From: Bordetella parapertussis
Lineage (GTDB): Bacteria; Pseudomonadota; Gammaproteobacteria; Burkholderiales; SG8-39
Reading direction: 5' to 3'
Assembly: GCA_945897475.1 (NCBI GenBank)
Contig: CAMDFL010000020.1
Coordinates: forward strand, 1-40,560
Length of the DNA stretch: 40,560 nt
Of the stretch, positions 10,966 to 38,034 are shown piece after piece (the stretch's first letter is position 1; the number at the start of each line of letters is the position of its first letter). Under the pieces are notes generated by a model. It was not told the origin of the DNA and searched no databases. It saw nothing but the letters and a program-made list of their open reading frames with translations. The position numbers and the translations under genes were made by a program.

Positions 10966-10974
10966 GGGTACAAT
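10946..10974 (+). promoter_or_regulatory. Probable promoter of the aminotransferase gene
   Basis: TTGGGG (10946-10951) and TACAAT (10969-10974) are separated by 17 bp. Transcription from about 10981 would give a leader of some 25 nt to the ATG at 11007. It lies inside the 5' end of uvrB on the other strand, so the two promoters must overlap. Confidence 0.5.
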
Positions 10975-11006
10975 GTGCAGTGCAACAAACCTCGCATCCT
11001 AACACT

Positions 11007-32854: not shown

Positions 32855-33460
32855 TCAGGATTTTTTCTCGCCTTCATGCGCATTGTTAGCCATGGACTCT
32901 TTCTCTGCAACGCCCTCTGGCGAGGCCGCTTGAAATCCGGGGAAACTAAAGCCTGAGAACATATTACGCGTCTGGTTCTGCACCTTTTCCTGCATCTGCA
33001 GGAACATGCTTCCGCTCTGATCCATGTAGGAGGACACCAGGCTTTGCATCGCCGGCCCCTGAAAGGCTATAAATTTATTCCAAAGATCTTGGCTCGCCTT
33101 GTTGTCACCGTGCAGAGAATGTGACTGCTCCTGCATTTTCTTCTGCAACTCGCTGAAAAGCTGAACGTTGCGTTCCAGATATGAACCCATCATTCCCTGC
33201 ATAGCATTGCCATAGGAACGAATGAATTGAGTGAGAACGTCGCAGGAGAACATCGGTGTCCCGCTGGACTCTTCCTCCAGTATTATTTGCAAAAGAATAG
33301 CGCGCGTCAGGTCCTCGGCTGATTTGGCGTCAAGCACCTGGAATTTCTCGTTTTTTAACACCAGCTCTTTCACATCCGCGAGCGTGATGTAGGCGCTGGT
33401 CTGGGTATCGTAGAGCCTGCGGTTAGGATACTTCTTGATCAGACGTATCGAATCAGCCAT
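32855..33460 (-). CDS. phaR: Polyhydroxyalkanoate synthesis repressor PhaR
   Basis: A 201-residue PhaR. Its N-terminal domain ([29 protein letters not shown]) is the PHB accumulation regulator DNA-binding domain, and the rest ([38 protein letters not shown]) is the PHB-binding domain. PhaR represses phasin and its own gene and lets go when it binds PHB granules. The C-terminal 60 residues are Gln/Met/Ser/Phe-rich and end in a charged tail. An AGGA stands eight bases before the ATG 33460. A 29-codon ORF upstream ends at TGA 33455-33453, overlapping the first codons, so translation may be coupled. The phaC and phaR upstream regions share a palindrome described under that feature. Confidence 0.94.
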
Positions 33461-33542
33461 TAAATTTTCCTGCCTGTGAACCGCCGGTGATGCGCGCGAA
33501 TGGGTTTAACGATTGTTGCGACGCAGTGAACAACGAGGGCAT
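33453..33542 (-). CDS. Short leader ORF (29 codons) overlapping the start of phaR
   Basis: ATG 33542 follows AAGGAGGACA, one of the strongest Shine-Dalgarno sequences in the window, though only three to five bases away. The peptide starts MPSLFTASQQSLNPFARITG and ends in GSQAGKFNG before TGA, which overlaps the phaR start (bases 33453-33455 lie inside its second and third codons). No family is recognised. A predicted promoter lies just upstream, so this ORF would be first on the phaR transcript. It may act through coupling or as a leader peptide, or be a gene remnant; none of these is shown. Homologues need checking. Confidence 0.5.
   Translation of the reverse strand: MPSLFTASQQSLNPFARITGGSQAGKFNG
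33517..33525. promoter_or_regulatory. Candidate PhaR operator upstream of phaR
   Basis: TGCGACGCA, a 9-bp palindrome (TGCG-N-CGCA), stands 57-65 bp before the phaR start. The same 9 bp lies in the phaC promoter. PhaR is known in other bacteria to bind TGC/GCA-rich inverted repeats and to repress its own gene, so this is a reasonable site by inference. It also lies within the leader ORF, so chance cannot be excluded. Confidence 0.4.
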
Positions 33543-33564
33543 TGTCCTCCTTAGAACCAGCACT

Positions 33565-33594
33565 GTCATATCACACTGCTACGGGCGCGAGCAA
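33565..33594 (-). promoter_or_regulatory. Predicted promoter of the leader ORF and phaR
   Basis: On the minus strand TTGCTC (33594-33589) and TATGAC (33570-33565) stand 18 bp apart, and the -10 has the extended motif TGA just before it. Transcription would start about 15-18 nt before the AAGGAGG of the leader ORF. Matches are moderate (three and four of six bases). Confidence 0.4.
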
Positions 33595-33620: not shown

Positions 33621-34364
33621 TTATTGCATGTGCTGGCCGCCGTTGATGGCGATATTGGCGCCATTGACGAAGGCAGCCTCTTCGGAACACAGGTAAATAA
33701 TCAAACCGGCGACCTCCTCGGGCTGGCCAAGCCTGCCTACCGGGATCTGCGGAATAATCTTGGTGTCGAGAATTTCCTTGGGAATCGCGGTCACCATCTT
33801 GGTGCCGATATAACCCGGCGAGATGGTATTGACGGTGACCCCTTTGCGCCCGACCTCCAGCGCCAGTGACTTGGAAAACCCGTGCATTCCGGCCTTGGCC
33901 GCAGAGTAATTAGTCTGTCCGAAAGCCCCCTTAGAGCCGTTTACGGAGGACACGTTGATGATACGGCCCCAGCCGCGCTCCACCATGGAATCGCAGACCT
34001 GCTTTGACATATTAAATACCGAATCCAGATTGGTGTGCATAACCGCGTCCCAATCCGACTTGGTCATTTTTTTAAAAGTCACATCACGCGTGATACCGGC
34101 GTTGTTCACAAGAATGTCCACCAGCCCCACCTCCTTGCTCACCTTCTCCACACACGCCTTGCAGGAGTCGAAATCAGCGACATCGCAGGCATAGGCATGA
34201 AAATCGTAGCCGCTGGATTTCATTAAGGCCATCCACTGGTCGGCGGTCTTATTGCTCGGGGAATAAGTAACAACCACCTTGTATCCCGCAAAAGCCAATT
34301 TGGTGCTGATGGTCTCGCCCAGCCCCCCCATGCCGCCGGTAATCAATGCCACTCGACCTGTCAT
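33621..34364 (-). CDS. phaB: Acetoacetyl-CoA reductase (NADPH)
   Basis: A 247-residue short-chain dehydrogenase that reduces acetoacetyl-CoA to (R)-3-hydroxybutyryl-CoA for PHB synthesis. The cofactor motif is TGGMGGLG (residues 9-16). The catalytic set is Ser140 (NVSSVNGSKG), Tyr153 and Lys157 (TNYSAAKAG), in the same positions as the Ralstonia enzyme. The C-terminal NGANIAINGGQHMQ is the PhaB ending. It is between phaA (168 bp upstream on the same strand) and phaR (160 bp downstream). The start ATG 34364 follows a GGGGTGATAA stretch. The gap to phaA contains a small stem (GTGCCT 34486-34491 with AGGCAC 34498-34503). Confidence 0.96.
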   Translation of the reverse strand: MTGRVALITGGMGGLGETISTKLAFAGYKVVVTYSPSNKTADQWMALMKSSGYDFHAYACDVADFDSCKACVEKVSKEVGLVDILVNNAGITRDVTFKKMTKSDWDAVMHTNLDSVFNMSKQVCDSMVERGWGRIINVSSVNGSKGAFGQTNYSAAKAGMHGFSKSLALEVGRKGVTVNTISPGYIGTKMVTAIPKEILDTKIIPQIPVGRLGQPEEVAGLIIYLCSEEAAFVNGANIAINGGQHMQ

Positions 34365-34532: not shown

Positions 34533-35711
34533 TTACCGCTCAACGGCGATCGCTACCCCCATGCCGCCGCCTATACAAAGCGAAGCGAGGCCTTTCTTGG
34601 CATCCCGGCGAAGCATTTCATAGAGCAGGGTCACTAATACCCGGCATCCGGATGCACCAATCGGATGACCCAGGGCTATCGCACCACCATTCACGTTGAT
34701 GCGGCTGGCATCCCAGCCCATCTGCTTGTTGACCGCCAAAGCCTGGGCCGCAAATGCCTCATTGATTTCCATCAAATCGAGATCGGCTGCGCTCCAGCCC
34801 GCCTTGGCAAGACACAATTGCGATGCCGGCACCGGCCCCATACCCATGATCTTGGGATCGACACCTGCGCAGGAATAAGCCTTGATTTTCGCCAGCGGTT
34901 TCAAGCCCAATGCCTGCGCTTTTTTCGCCGACATCATCACCACGGCCGCCGCGCCGTCATTGATTCCCGAGGCATTACCCGCGGTGACCGTACCCGCCTT
35001 GTCGAACGCCGCTCGCAGGCCCGCAAGCGATTCGGAGGTGGTGCCATGCTTGGGATACTCATCCACGTCAAATTTCAACGGATCGCCCTTGCGCTGTGGA
35101 ATTTCCAAAGTCAAAATTTCGTCCTTGAAGCGACCCGCGTTCTGCGCGGCTTCGGCTTTTTGCTGCGAGTTTGCCGCAAATTCGTCCTGCGCCTGGCGGG
35201 AGATGCCGAACTCTTTGGCGACGTTTTCAGCGGTGACGCCCATGTGGTAATTGTTGAATACGTCCCACAACCCATCGTTGATCATGGAGTCGATGAGTTT
35301 CGCATCGCCCATACGCACTCCATCTCGAGAGCCTTGCATCAGGTGAGGCGAGAGACTCATGTTTTCCTGGCCGCCGGCAACCACGATTTCCGAATCGCCC
35401 GCCATGATTGCCTGGGCCGCGAGGTGAGTCGCGCGCAAACCGGAGCCGCACACCATGTTGATTGTCATCGCCGGCACCGTGTTGGGCACACCTGCCCGCA
35501 GCGAGGCCTGGCGCGCGCCATTCATGCCGATACCCGCAGTCAACACCTGCCCCATGAATACCTCCGATACCTGATCAGGCGCAAGGCCGGCACGAGCCAA
35601 AACGCCCTTGATCACATGCGCACCTAAATCAGCGCCGGAAATTTTTGCAAGCGTTCCGCCGAACTTTCCGATCGCCGTGCGACCTGCCGCAACTATGACC
35701 ACGTCATTCAT
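34533..35711 (-). CDS. phaA: Acetyl-CoA C-acetyltransferase (biosynthetic thiolase)
   Basis: A 392-residue thiolase that condenses two acetyl-CoA to acetoacetyl-CoA. The active site has Cys88 ([13 protein letters not shown]), His349 (LGHPIGASG) and Cys379 (SLCIGGGMG). The N-terminus [18 protein letters not shown] and the [19 protein letters not shown] region are those of PhaA. The start ATG 35711 has AAAGGAAATCAAC upstream. It lies between phaC and phaB in the usual phaCAB order. The 123-bp gap to phaC holds a four-unit 22-bp tandem repeat, which is the most unusual thing about the operon. Confidence 0.96.
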
Positions 35712-35725
35712 GTTGATTTCCTTTT

Positions 35726-35813
35726 AGGTTGCTTATGCTCTTATTTCAGGTTGCTTATGCGCTTATTTCAGGTTGCTTATGCTCTTATTTCAGCTTGCTT
35801 ACGCTCTTTTTAG
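35726..35813. repeat. Four 22-bp tandem repeats between phaC and phaA
   Basis: Units 35726-35747, 35748-35769, 35770-35791 and 35792-35813 have the form AGGTTGCTTATGCTCTTATTT plus C. Units 1 and 3 are the same, unit 2 differs by one base, and unit 4 by several. They fill most of the phaC-phaA gap and are AT-rich with TTGC/TGC elements. On the coding (minus) strand each has GCATAAGCAA. Confidence 0.92.
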
Positions 35814-35834: not shown

Positions 35835-37568
35835 CTAGACAATATTTTTCCTGACGTAACGTCCAGGCGCGGGTTCGATGGGCCGATACGCCTTGTTGCC
35901 CAATTGACTCTTCGCACGAACCTTGGCGCCGCCCCACTTTGCCAGCCACTGCGCCCAATCATTCCACCAACTGCCCGGCACTTGTTTCGCCGCATCGAAC
36001 CAGGCCTGTGAATCAAGGACAGCTTGCTCGGAACGTTTGTTTCCAGCCGCTGTGTCTTCTATCCAGTGGCTGCGAAGGTTCTTCGCTGGCGGATTGACAA
36101 TTCCCGCAACATGCCCACTTGCGCCCAGGACGAAGCGTCTATCACCGCCCAACAAGCCACGCGACAGATAAGCGGCTTTCCACGGAACGATATGGTCTTC
36201 GCGCATCGCCAGAATATAGGCAGGCAGGTCGATCCGTCCGAGATCCACCTTTTGCCCCAGCATACTTAGTTTGCCGGGCACACGTAAGTTATTCTCAAGA
36301 TAGGTGTTGCGAAGGTAATAGCAATACATAGGACCTGGCAAACTGCTCGAATCGGCATTCCAGTAAAGCAGATCGAAGGCGGCCGGCTGCTTGCCCTTAA
36401 GGTAATTATTCACAACGTAGGCCCACACCATGTCATTGGCGCGCAATGACGAAAACACAACGGAAAGCTCCTTGCCGGGCAAGACGCCACCGCTGCCTAT
36501 AGACGCCTCGCGCGTGGCGACATGCTGCTCGTCGATGAACATGCCCAGTTCGCCTGGATCGGAATAATCAAGCAGGGTTGCAAGCAATGTGACGCTGGCC
36601 ACGCGATCATCGCCTTTTGCGGCGAGTACCGCGAGCACCGAAGCGAGCAGGGTGCCGCCGACACAAAAACCAAGCACATTGATCTTGTCAGCACGCGAGA
36701 TAGCGTGTGCCGCCGCTATGCCTTCCATCAAACCCAGACGCAGGTAGTCGTCCCAGACAAGGTGACCCTGCTCCGCCTCGATGTTGCGCCAGGACACCAT
36801 GAAAACAGTGTGCCCCTGTTCAACCGCGAAGCGCACCAAAGAGGTTTCAGGGGTCATATCCAGGATGTAGAACTTGTTGATGCAGGGCGGCACCATCAAC
36901 AAGGGGCGCTTGTACACCTGCGTCGTCGCCGGGGCATATTGAATCAGCTGAATCAGTTCGTTCTCGAAAATCACCTGACCCGAGGTGACGCCCAAGTTGC
37001 GGCCGACTTCAAATTCCGACTCGTCGGTAGTGGAGAGGCGGCCTTTGGACAGGTCGTCGATCAGGTTTTGTATTCCGTGGGCAAAGTTTTCGCCCTTGGA
37101 TTCCAGCGCGAGTTTGAGCACCTCAGGGTTGGTCGCAGCGAAATTTGCGGGGCTCATCGCATCGACGAACTGGCGGGTGGCGAACTCCAATCGCTCCTTG
37201 GCTTTTCCCTCTAACTGAACCGAATGCGCCATTTCGGTCAGATAGTTCGCGGAGAGCAAATAGGACTTGCGGATGAAATCAAAATAAGGGCTGGTGGACC
37301 ATTCGGCGCAGGTAAAACGCCTATCACTTTTGGCTGGCTGGCCTTCCTGCAAATCAGCGCTCTCGCCACGAAGAAATGCCTTCCACATTACCAATTGCTT
37401 TTGATAATAATCAGCTTGCAGAGATACCAGCTTCGCGGCTGGTTCGCCCTGCCCGCCATCGGCCCCAGGAGCCCCCGGTTGCGGCGCCCAACCAGTGCGA
37501 CATTGTTGCAAAGCAGCCTCAGCGGCCTTATACAAGACGTCAAAAGGTGGATTGCTATTTTCAGACAT
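35835..37568 (-). CDS. phaC: Class I poly(R)-hydroxyalkanoate synthase
   Basis: A 577-residue PHA synthase that polymerises (R)-3-hydroxyacyl-CoA into polyester granules. The lipase-like box is GFCVGG with catalytic Cys302; Asp458 (MREDHIVPW) and His486 (LGASGHVAGIVNPP) complete the triad. The N-terminal 180 residues are variable, with a Gly/Pro/Ala-rich stretch at about 28-45, and the rest aligns with Ralstonia PhaC over the PPCINKFYILD and SWRNIEAEQG regions. The C-terminus ends in RYVRKNIV. It is the first gene of phaCABR, with its own strong promoter upstream. The ribosome-binding site before ATG 37568 is weak. Confidence 0.97.
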   Translation of the reverse strand: MSENSNPPFDVLYKAAEAALQQCRTGWAPQPGAPGADGGQGEPAAKLVSLQADYYQKQLVMWKAFLRGESADLQEGQPAKSDRRFTCAEWSTSPYFDFIRKSYLLSANYLTEMAHSVQLEGKAKERLEFATRQFVDAMSPANFAATNPEVLKLALESKGENFAHGIQNLIDDLSKGRLSTTDESEFEVGRNLGVTSGQVIFENELIQLIQYAPATTQVYKRPLLMVPPCINKFYILDMTPETSLVRFAVEQGHTVFMVSWRNIEAEQGHLVWDDYLRLGLMEGIAAAHAISRADKINVLGFCVGGTLLASVLAVLAAKGDDRVASVTLLATLLDYSDPGELGMFIDEQHVATREASIGSGGVLPGKELSVVFSSLRANDMVWAYVVNNYLKGKQPAAFDLLYWNADSSSLPGPMYCYYLRNTYLENNLRVPGKLSMLGQKVDLGRIDLPAYILAMREDHIVPWKAAYLSRGLLGGDRRFVLGASGHVAGIVNPPAKNLRSHWIEDTAAGNKRSEQAVLDSQAWFDAAKQVPGSWWNDWAQWLAKWGGAKVRAKSQLGNKAYRPIEPAPGRYVRKNIV

Positions 37569-37625: not shown

Positions 37626-37654
37626 ATTATTGCGTCGCACAATAAACCTGTCAA
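37626..37654 (-). promoter_or_regulatory. Strong sigma-70 promoter of phaC
   Basis: On the minus strand a perfect TTGACA (37654-37649) and AATAAT (37631-37626, five of six bases) stand exactly 17 bp apart, about 58 bp before the phaC start codon. It is the best promoter match seen in the window. Confidence 0.75.
37630..37642. promoter_or_regulatory. Candidate operator within the phaC promoter spacer
   Basis: TTGCGTCGCACAA is an imperfect inverted repeat around TGCG-N-CGCA (37631-37639) lying between the -35 and -10 boxes, so a bound protein would block RNA polymerase. The 9-bp core TGCGTCGCA is the same as the one upstream of phaR. PhaR is the obvious candidate (inference). Confidence 0.45.
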
Positions 37655-37762: not shown

Positions 37763-38034
37763 AAATGGATCATTCGCCTCGCATGAGACCCTGGCAGCCT
37801 GTCGGACTTGAATCGGAATTACACGTCATAGCGACCATGTAATTTGGAGTGGGCACAAGGCAGATTGTTGGCGGACTGAGCCGCGAATCCACGCGCGACA
37901 AGCGATTTCCTGCGCTTTTCGCGTGTCGTGCCGAACCAGTCTTCGCTTTTCGCGTGTCGTGCCAAACCAGTCTTTAATCAATCAACCCAGCACGAATTCA
38001 TCCAAAACCCGAATACAGTTTTATTGGTGACTAT
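37763..38034. other. Gene-free stretch between clpB and the terminator
   Basis: No convincing protein gene lies here. It holds a 7-bp perfect stem AATTACA/TGTAATT (37817-37823 and 37838-37844) and a two-copy 31-bp repeat (37913-37974). It could be a clpB 3' untranslated region or encode a small RNA; the sequence does not decide. Confidence 0.45.
37913..37974. repeat. 31-bp tandem duplication after clpB
   Basis: Two adjacent 31-bp units, 37913-37943 and 37944-37974, contain CGCTTTTCGCGTGTCGTGCC followed by GAACCAGTCTT or AAACCAGTCTT; only one base differs. It is a recent duplication by its high identity. Confidence 0.9.

Follow-up and report, generated by a model that had tools for sequence, protein, structure and literature searches.

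Predicted PhaR operators in the core promoter of phaC and upstream of phaR

Analysis of the pha locus in a stretch of 40,560 nucleotides (hereafter the window, that is, the whole stretch of DNA that was analysed) identifies two palindromes, one in the core promoter of phaC and the other upstream of phaR, which we interpret, with a probability of roughly 0.87, as operators of a single PhaR, with repression that would be relieved by PHB and restored by phasin coating. The sequence, the identity of the motif, the geometry of the promoter, the conservation and the presence of one PhaR gene are direct observations made here. The 17-mer at phaC is very probably a PhaR operator because no other position in the window scores as high against a motif derived from phasin promoters of other species, because it shows two mismatches to the published PhaR consensus and resembles the operator of the genome's best-scoring phasin gene, and because its position is kept in most relatives. 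The top score, the likeness to the phasin operator and the kept position all support the proposal, made in a preliminary description of this DNA, that phaC is a direct target of PhaR. The 17-mer upstream of phaR is probably a weakened operator.

The pha locus and its promoters

The features under consideration are as follows:

32855..33460, minus strand: phaR (PF07879, 1.2e-29, and PF05233, 1.4e-31; ATG at 33460)
33513..33529, no strand assigned: predicted phaR operator, 17-mer TTGTTGCGACGCAGTGA (plus strand), core TGCGACGCA at 33517-33525, 12.85 bits
33541..33546, minus strand: -10-like hexamer GACAAT of phaR (promoter scan)
33564..33569, minus strand: -35-like hexamer ATGACA of phaR (promoter scan; kept in the genus alignment)
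33621..34364, minus strand: phaB-type acetoacetyl-CoA reductase, a short-chain dehydrogenase (PF00106, 1.6e-62)
34533..35711, minus strand: phaA-type thiolase, downstream of phaC on the same strand (PF00108, 2.9e-103)
35835..37568, minus strand: phaC, class I PHA synthase (PF07167, 6.3e-65)
37626..37631, minus strand: -10 hexamer AATAAT of phaC (promoter scan), which shares bases with the right operator arm
37627..37643, no strand assigned: predicted phaC operator, 17-mer ATTGTGCGACGCAATAA (minus strand), core TGCGACGCA at 37631-37639, 20.3 bits
37649..37654, minus strand: -35 hexamer TTGACA of phaC (promoter scan)

The genes are arranged on the minus strand in the order phaC, thiolase, short-chain reductase, phaR. 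The match of the reductase is only at the family level, and the gene context points to the phaB-type function. The PhaR protein contains both the PHB_acc_N DNA-binding domain (PF07879) and the PHB_acc domain (PF05233); it is the product of the single PHB_acc_N protein gene found in the genome, which therefore has one PhaR. A sequence search returned no solved structure for any PhaR relative. The promoter scan predicts a phaC promoter, TTGACA-17-AATAAT (37654-37626), that agrees with the consensus at 11 of 12 positions and a weaker one for phaR, ATGACA-17-GACAAT (33569-33541), with 9 of 12.

Two repeats were seen by eye in the same region: a direct repeat, CTTTTCGCGTGTCGTGCCRAACCAGTCTT, in two copies in the clpB-phaC intergenic region (window positions ~37910-37975), and a short tandem repeat, with units resembling TTTCAGGTTGCTTATGCTCTTA, in the gap that separates phaC from the thiolase gene (~35725-35806).

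A 9-bp palindrome and the 17-bp motif that contains it

The preliminary description drew attention to a 9-bp palindrome, TGCG-N-CGCA, at both promoters, and its account of the positions was accurate. The 9-mer TGCGTCGCA (TGCGACGCA on the minus strand) occupies 37631-37639, within the 17-bp spacer between the -35 and -10 hexamers of phaC, overlapping the latter by one base; TGCGACGCA recurs at 33517-33525, 57-65 bp before the phaR ATG (33460, minus strand); and a pattern search confirms that these are the only two occurrences of TGCGNCGCA in the 40,560 bases. The description had also stated that scattering of the motif through the genome at background frequency would count against it, and this is how the 9-mer is distributed: shuffled versions of the window are expected to contain 2.5 copies compared to the 2 observed, and there are 294 palindromic copies in the 4.6-Mb genome (this and the other genome-wide counts are pattern searches). 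By that reasoning, the 9-mer alone is no evidence. It is the extended 17-mer, at 37627-37643 and 33513-33529, that exceeds chance, so the motif had been only half described.

A scan of the window with the published 17-mer, allowing up to 3 mismatches, produced dozens of matches and was uninformative; it was therefore abandoned in favour of a motif learned from other genomes. The training set comprised stretches of at most 420 bp preceding the phasin domain in 29 other genomes, with the window and its genome excluded. Expectation maximisation was started from random fragments of the training sequences only, with no known motif supplied. The procedure converged on a 17-bp palindrome, wTKNTGCRNYGCANMAw, that fits nearly all of the training phasin promoters. 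This de novo motif matches the R. eutropha PhaR motif, YTKNTGCRNYGCANMAR (PMC12849132), and agrees with the core of the Sinorhizobium PhaR motif, YGCRNYGCR in S. meliloti (PMC12542648).

When the motif was made symmetrical and slid over the ~40,500 positions of the window, the phaC site came out on top with 20.3 bits, followed by a site before an aminotransferase gene (15.0 bits, discussed below) and the phaR site (12.85 bits); the fourth match scored 7.96 bits. Among dinucleotide shuffles of the whole 40-kb window, 20.3 bits was reached in 3%. Both pha sites contain the palindromic core TGCRNYGCA. The phaC site additionally has both outer bases, T (-7) and A (+7), and matches TNNTGCRNYGCANNA. 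The phaR site has a G in place of the near-invariant A at +7; the outer bases are a soft feature of the motif, but the site is weaker for this degenerate arm. The strict form of the motif yields 36 sites in the whole genome, compared to 13 for the reversed pattern; the phaC site ranks twelfth of the 36 by 15-mer score, or about fifteenth at worst given the unread flank bases.

Conservation of the predicted operator in the phaC promoter

The predicted phaC operator occupies the spacer between the -35 and -10 hexamers, and its right arm makes the -10. The comparison of phaC upstream regions in relatives, one of the checks suggested in the preliminary description, shows that this arrangement is widely kept. 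Of the 35 other loci of the same family, 30 contain a match scoring 12 bits or more no farther than 300 bp from the phaC start, whereas shuffled versions averaged 0.18 and the controls, three phaC coding blocks, had none. In 29 of the 32 family promoters with a site (that of the window included), the start of TTGAC precedes the operator centre by 19-21 bp, so that the operator fills the spacer and the right arm (GCAATAAT or GCAAAAT) forms the -10. The left half-site within the spacer, TTGTGC, is kept in most relatives. No second operator above 9 bits was detected near phaC at any locus of the family.

In a wider set, outside of two clades, all 36 sites found (27 in mixed Betaproteobacteria and 9 in Sulfuritalea/Sulfurisoma) have TTGAC 18-22 bp before the centre. 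The two clades are Thauera/Azoarcus/Aromatoleum/Pseudothauera, with a site at 1 of 27 phaC loci, and Paraburkholderia/Caballeronia, with a site at 1 of 9, in each case devoid of the spacer geometry; a recheck of 600 bp upstream gave the same result in both. The link between PhaR and phaC is therefore not universal. Among 150 genomes of the order, strong spacer operators were found in 18 of the 102 with PhaR and in 1 of the 48 lacking it (Fisher p 0.004, uncorrected for genome size and shared ancestry), and at least 8 of the strong spacer operators, including that of the window, have phaR no more than about 6 kb away. The spacer of the R. eutropha phaC1 promoter may hold a similar sequence, which we found neither by text search nor in 300 genomes of the order; hence, this likeness is not counted as evidence.

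The site upstream of phaR

The centre of the probable phaR operator lies 20 bp downstream of the end of the -10-like GACAAT, just past the likely transcription start. The alignment of phaR upstream regions, likewise suggested in the preliminary description, gave a mixed outcome. The genus alignment shows the TGC-N3-GCA core at the same position upstream of phaR in both same-genus genomes, each of which has a second site about 56 bp farther upstream, right before ATGACA; the window phaR lacks an upstream partner operator corresponding to this one (at -118 in a same-genus genome). Across the family, a site is found upstream of phaR in 13 of 34 relatives, compared to 0.07 in shuffles, mostly at other positions. 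Thus, the position is kept within the genus but mostly not in the family.

Predicted paired operators in phasin promoters

As the preliminary description had anticipated, motif matches occur near a phasin gene: the 17-mer marks the promoter of the best-scoring phasin gene of the genome. The operator there, TTTTTGTGCGATGCAATATT, is nearly identical to TTTATTGTGCGACGCAATAATT of phaC and directly follows TTGACT...TAAAAT; this promoter contains two sites of 21.2 and 15.2 bits that are 55 bp apart, and a third site is located farther upstream. The genome's other phasin gene, a weaker match (PF09361, 54.6 bits), has no PhaR-type site within 1.5 kb.

Two operators are present in 23 of the 29 phasin promoters of relatives, in 22 cases separated by 54-58 bp. 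In nearly all of these pairs, the upstream centre is followed 13-17 bp later by the beginning of a TTGAC, so that the pair brackets the promoter. The two layouts accordingly differ: phaC has a single operator embedded in the promoter, whereas the phasin genes have a pair, about 56 bp apart, around it. The 54-58 bp spacing corresponds to about five helical turns and suggests that one PhaR tetramer could bridge both phasin operators.

Proposed regulation and alternative explanations

Binding, repression, polymer sensing and removal of PhaR from DNA by PHB granules are extrapolated from the PhaR proteins that have been studied. By this analogy, free PhaR (a tetramer in the studied relatives) would bind the spacer operator overlapping the -10 of phaC and, from that position, shut out RNA polymerase; it would also bind the site near the phaR transcription start and the paired sites around the phasin promoter. 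Once PhaC begins to make PHB, PhaR would be drawn to the nascent polymer and off the DNA, releasing phaC, phaR and the phasin gene; coating of the granules by phasin would then free PhaR, and repression would return. To start, such a loop would need some unrepressed expression of phaC. Polymer synthesis thus probably turns on the gene for its own synthase. The feedback loop on polymer synthesis that the preliminary description envisaged is retained, with its sign specified: it would be positive at first, when the product relieves its own synthase, and negative once phasins displace PhaR.

Conceivably, although this is a tentative extension, the operator layout also sets the order of the PHB genes, with the single phaC operator set against the phasin pair (and the pair at phaR in relatives), the latter perhaps bridged by a tetramer. 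If this is the case, the synthase gene would be released by small falls in free PhaR earlier than the phasin gene, resulting in a positive-feedback start and ordered granule assembly, and such ordered release would apply to many Betaproteobacteria with the same layout.

Several alternatives to this scheme were considered. The phaC site could be a true PhaR operator and the phaR site a decayed relic or a chance match, with no autoregulation left here. The low score (12.85 bits against 20.3 for phaC), the G at +7 and the loss of the -118 partner seen in a same-genus genome all fit such a scenario, and sites reaching 12.8 bits turn up in shuffles at about 0.011 per kb, that is, with a chance of roughly 1 in 300 to 1 in 200 per 300-500 bp. 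We nevertheless find it unlikely, given that both same-genus genomes keep the TGC-N3-GCA core in place and that the family has more sites upstream of phaR than shuffled sequence does (13 of 34 vs 0.07). Far less plausible is the possibility that a chance 9-bp palindrome in a GC-rich genome is kept at phaC merely through its overlap with the core promoter. The 9-mer alone is indeed at background frequency, and those bases of the right arm that belong to the -10 hexamer would be kept anyway; the left half-site, however, is kept in most relatives even though it lies in the spacer, and promoter spacers need no fixed sequence. Furthermore, the same 17-mer marks phasin promoters, and promoters with spacer operators are concentrated in genomes with PhaR.

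The identity of the bound protein is not given by motif matching, and R. eutropha PhaR activates phaP3 (PMC12849132), so that another DNA-binding protein with the same target, or PhaR acting as an activator of phaC, also has to be weighed. Either appears improbable: in R. eutropha, footprinting and gel shifts with PhaR used this very motif, there is one PhaR in the genome, and a protein covering the spacer and the -10 is in a blocking position. Activator sites are normally located upstream of the -35. Repression of phaC, phaR and the phasin gene by a single PhaR remains our preferred reading. Several observations weigh against it: the modest score and missing partner of the phaR site, the near-absence of phaC sites in the two clades named above, the second phasin gene that has no site nearby, and the description of pha synthesis genes in R. 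eutropha as constitutive (PMC7204398).

Relation to known PhaR systems

PhaR operators, autoregulation and phasin control are already known. In R. eutropha, the palindrome common to the regulon (phaP1, phaP3, phaR) is the same as that recovered here, and phaP1 has one site upstream of the -35 and one around the transcription start, similar to the phasin promoters of relatives in this analysis (PMC12849132). The pha synthesis genes of this bacterium are described as constitutive and outside direct control by PhaR (PMC7204398); reviews describe PhaR as a phasin regulator that does not act directly on PHA synthesis, and R. eutropha phaC as constitutive (PMC7204398, PMC9049629). R. eutropha phaC, described as constitutive (PMC7204398) and not a reported PhaR target in the literature searched, thus differs from the phaC examined here, which carries a predicted operator.

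Another parallel is PhbF, the betaproteobacterial PhaR of Herbaspirillum seropedicae, which recognizes the motif TG[N]TGC[N]3GCAA, acts as a repressor of phaP1 and of its own gene, and in EMSA binds eleven PHB promoters including the dskA-phbC region; at phbC, binding is in vitro only (PMC3206438). Direct contact of PhaR with a synthase promoter is therefore not new: the contention of the preliminary description that PhaR targets extend beyond phasin genes is supported for phaC but without the novelty. In S. meliloti, AniA/PhaR has a YGCRNYGCR core with AT-rich arms and two-site phasin promoters, as here (PMC12542648), although its phasin sites flank the -35 element, whereas those of the relatives in our set bracket the whole promoter. 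The Bradyrhizobium PhaR represses some phaC paralogs, and the main synthase gene, phaC1, was free of PhaR control in a 2024 study (PMC10888616).

The H. seropedicae PhbF study contains no report that we found of an operator filling the spacer or of the conservation of one, nor did we find either feature, the conservation being wide here, in the literature searched, which included few subscription papers. The predicted phaC operator is an addition to an established regulatory system and does not define a new one. Much of the Betaproteobacteria apparently has PhaR wired into the core promoter of phaC, an arrangement in which PHB would induce the enzyme that makes it and which bears on the engineering of PHB yield and granule number. 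Thauera/Azoarcus and Paraburkholderia differ, and the rules of one model should therefore not be transferred to another.

Other PhaR-type sites

The second-best match in the window lies outside the pha locus:

10972..10988, no strand assigned: predicted PhaR-type operator AATGTGCAGTGCAACAA before an aspartate-type aminotransferase gene, 15.0 bits

Additional strong PhaR-type sites in the same genome are located in L139 (~2466-2482), L128 (~2514-2530), L147 (~363-379), L136 (~1758-1774) and L141 (~1401-1417); the neighbouring genes encode a K+ transporter together with an mnmC-like protein, glutamate synthase, a DEAD helicase, and hydantoinases. Judging by the motif, strong sites beyond the pha genes could possibly represent a wider PhaR regulon; this was dropped as a claim, given that glutamate synthase, the K+ transporter, hydantoinases and the helicase form no clear functional set. 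The site on the aminotransferase side follows a -10-like GTACAAT, and the gene is divergent from uvrB; this site is missing in most other genomes, but a near-identical one occupies the same place in one same-genus genome, and L283 and L291 also have sites.
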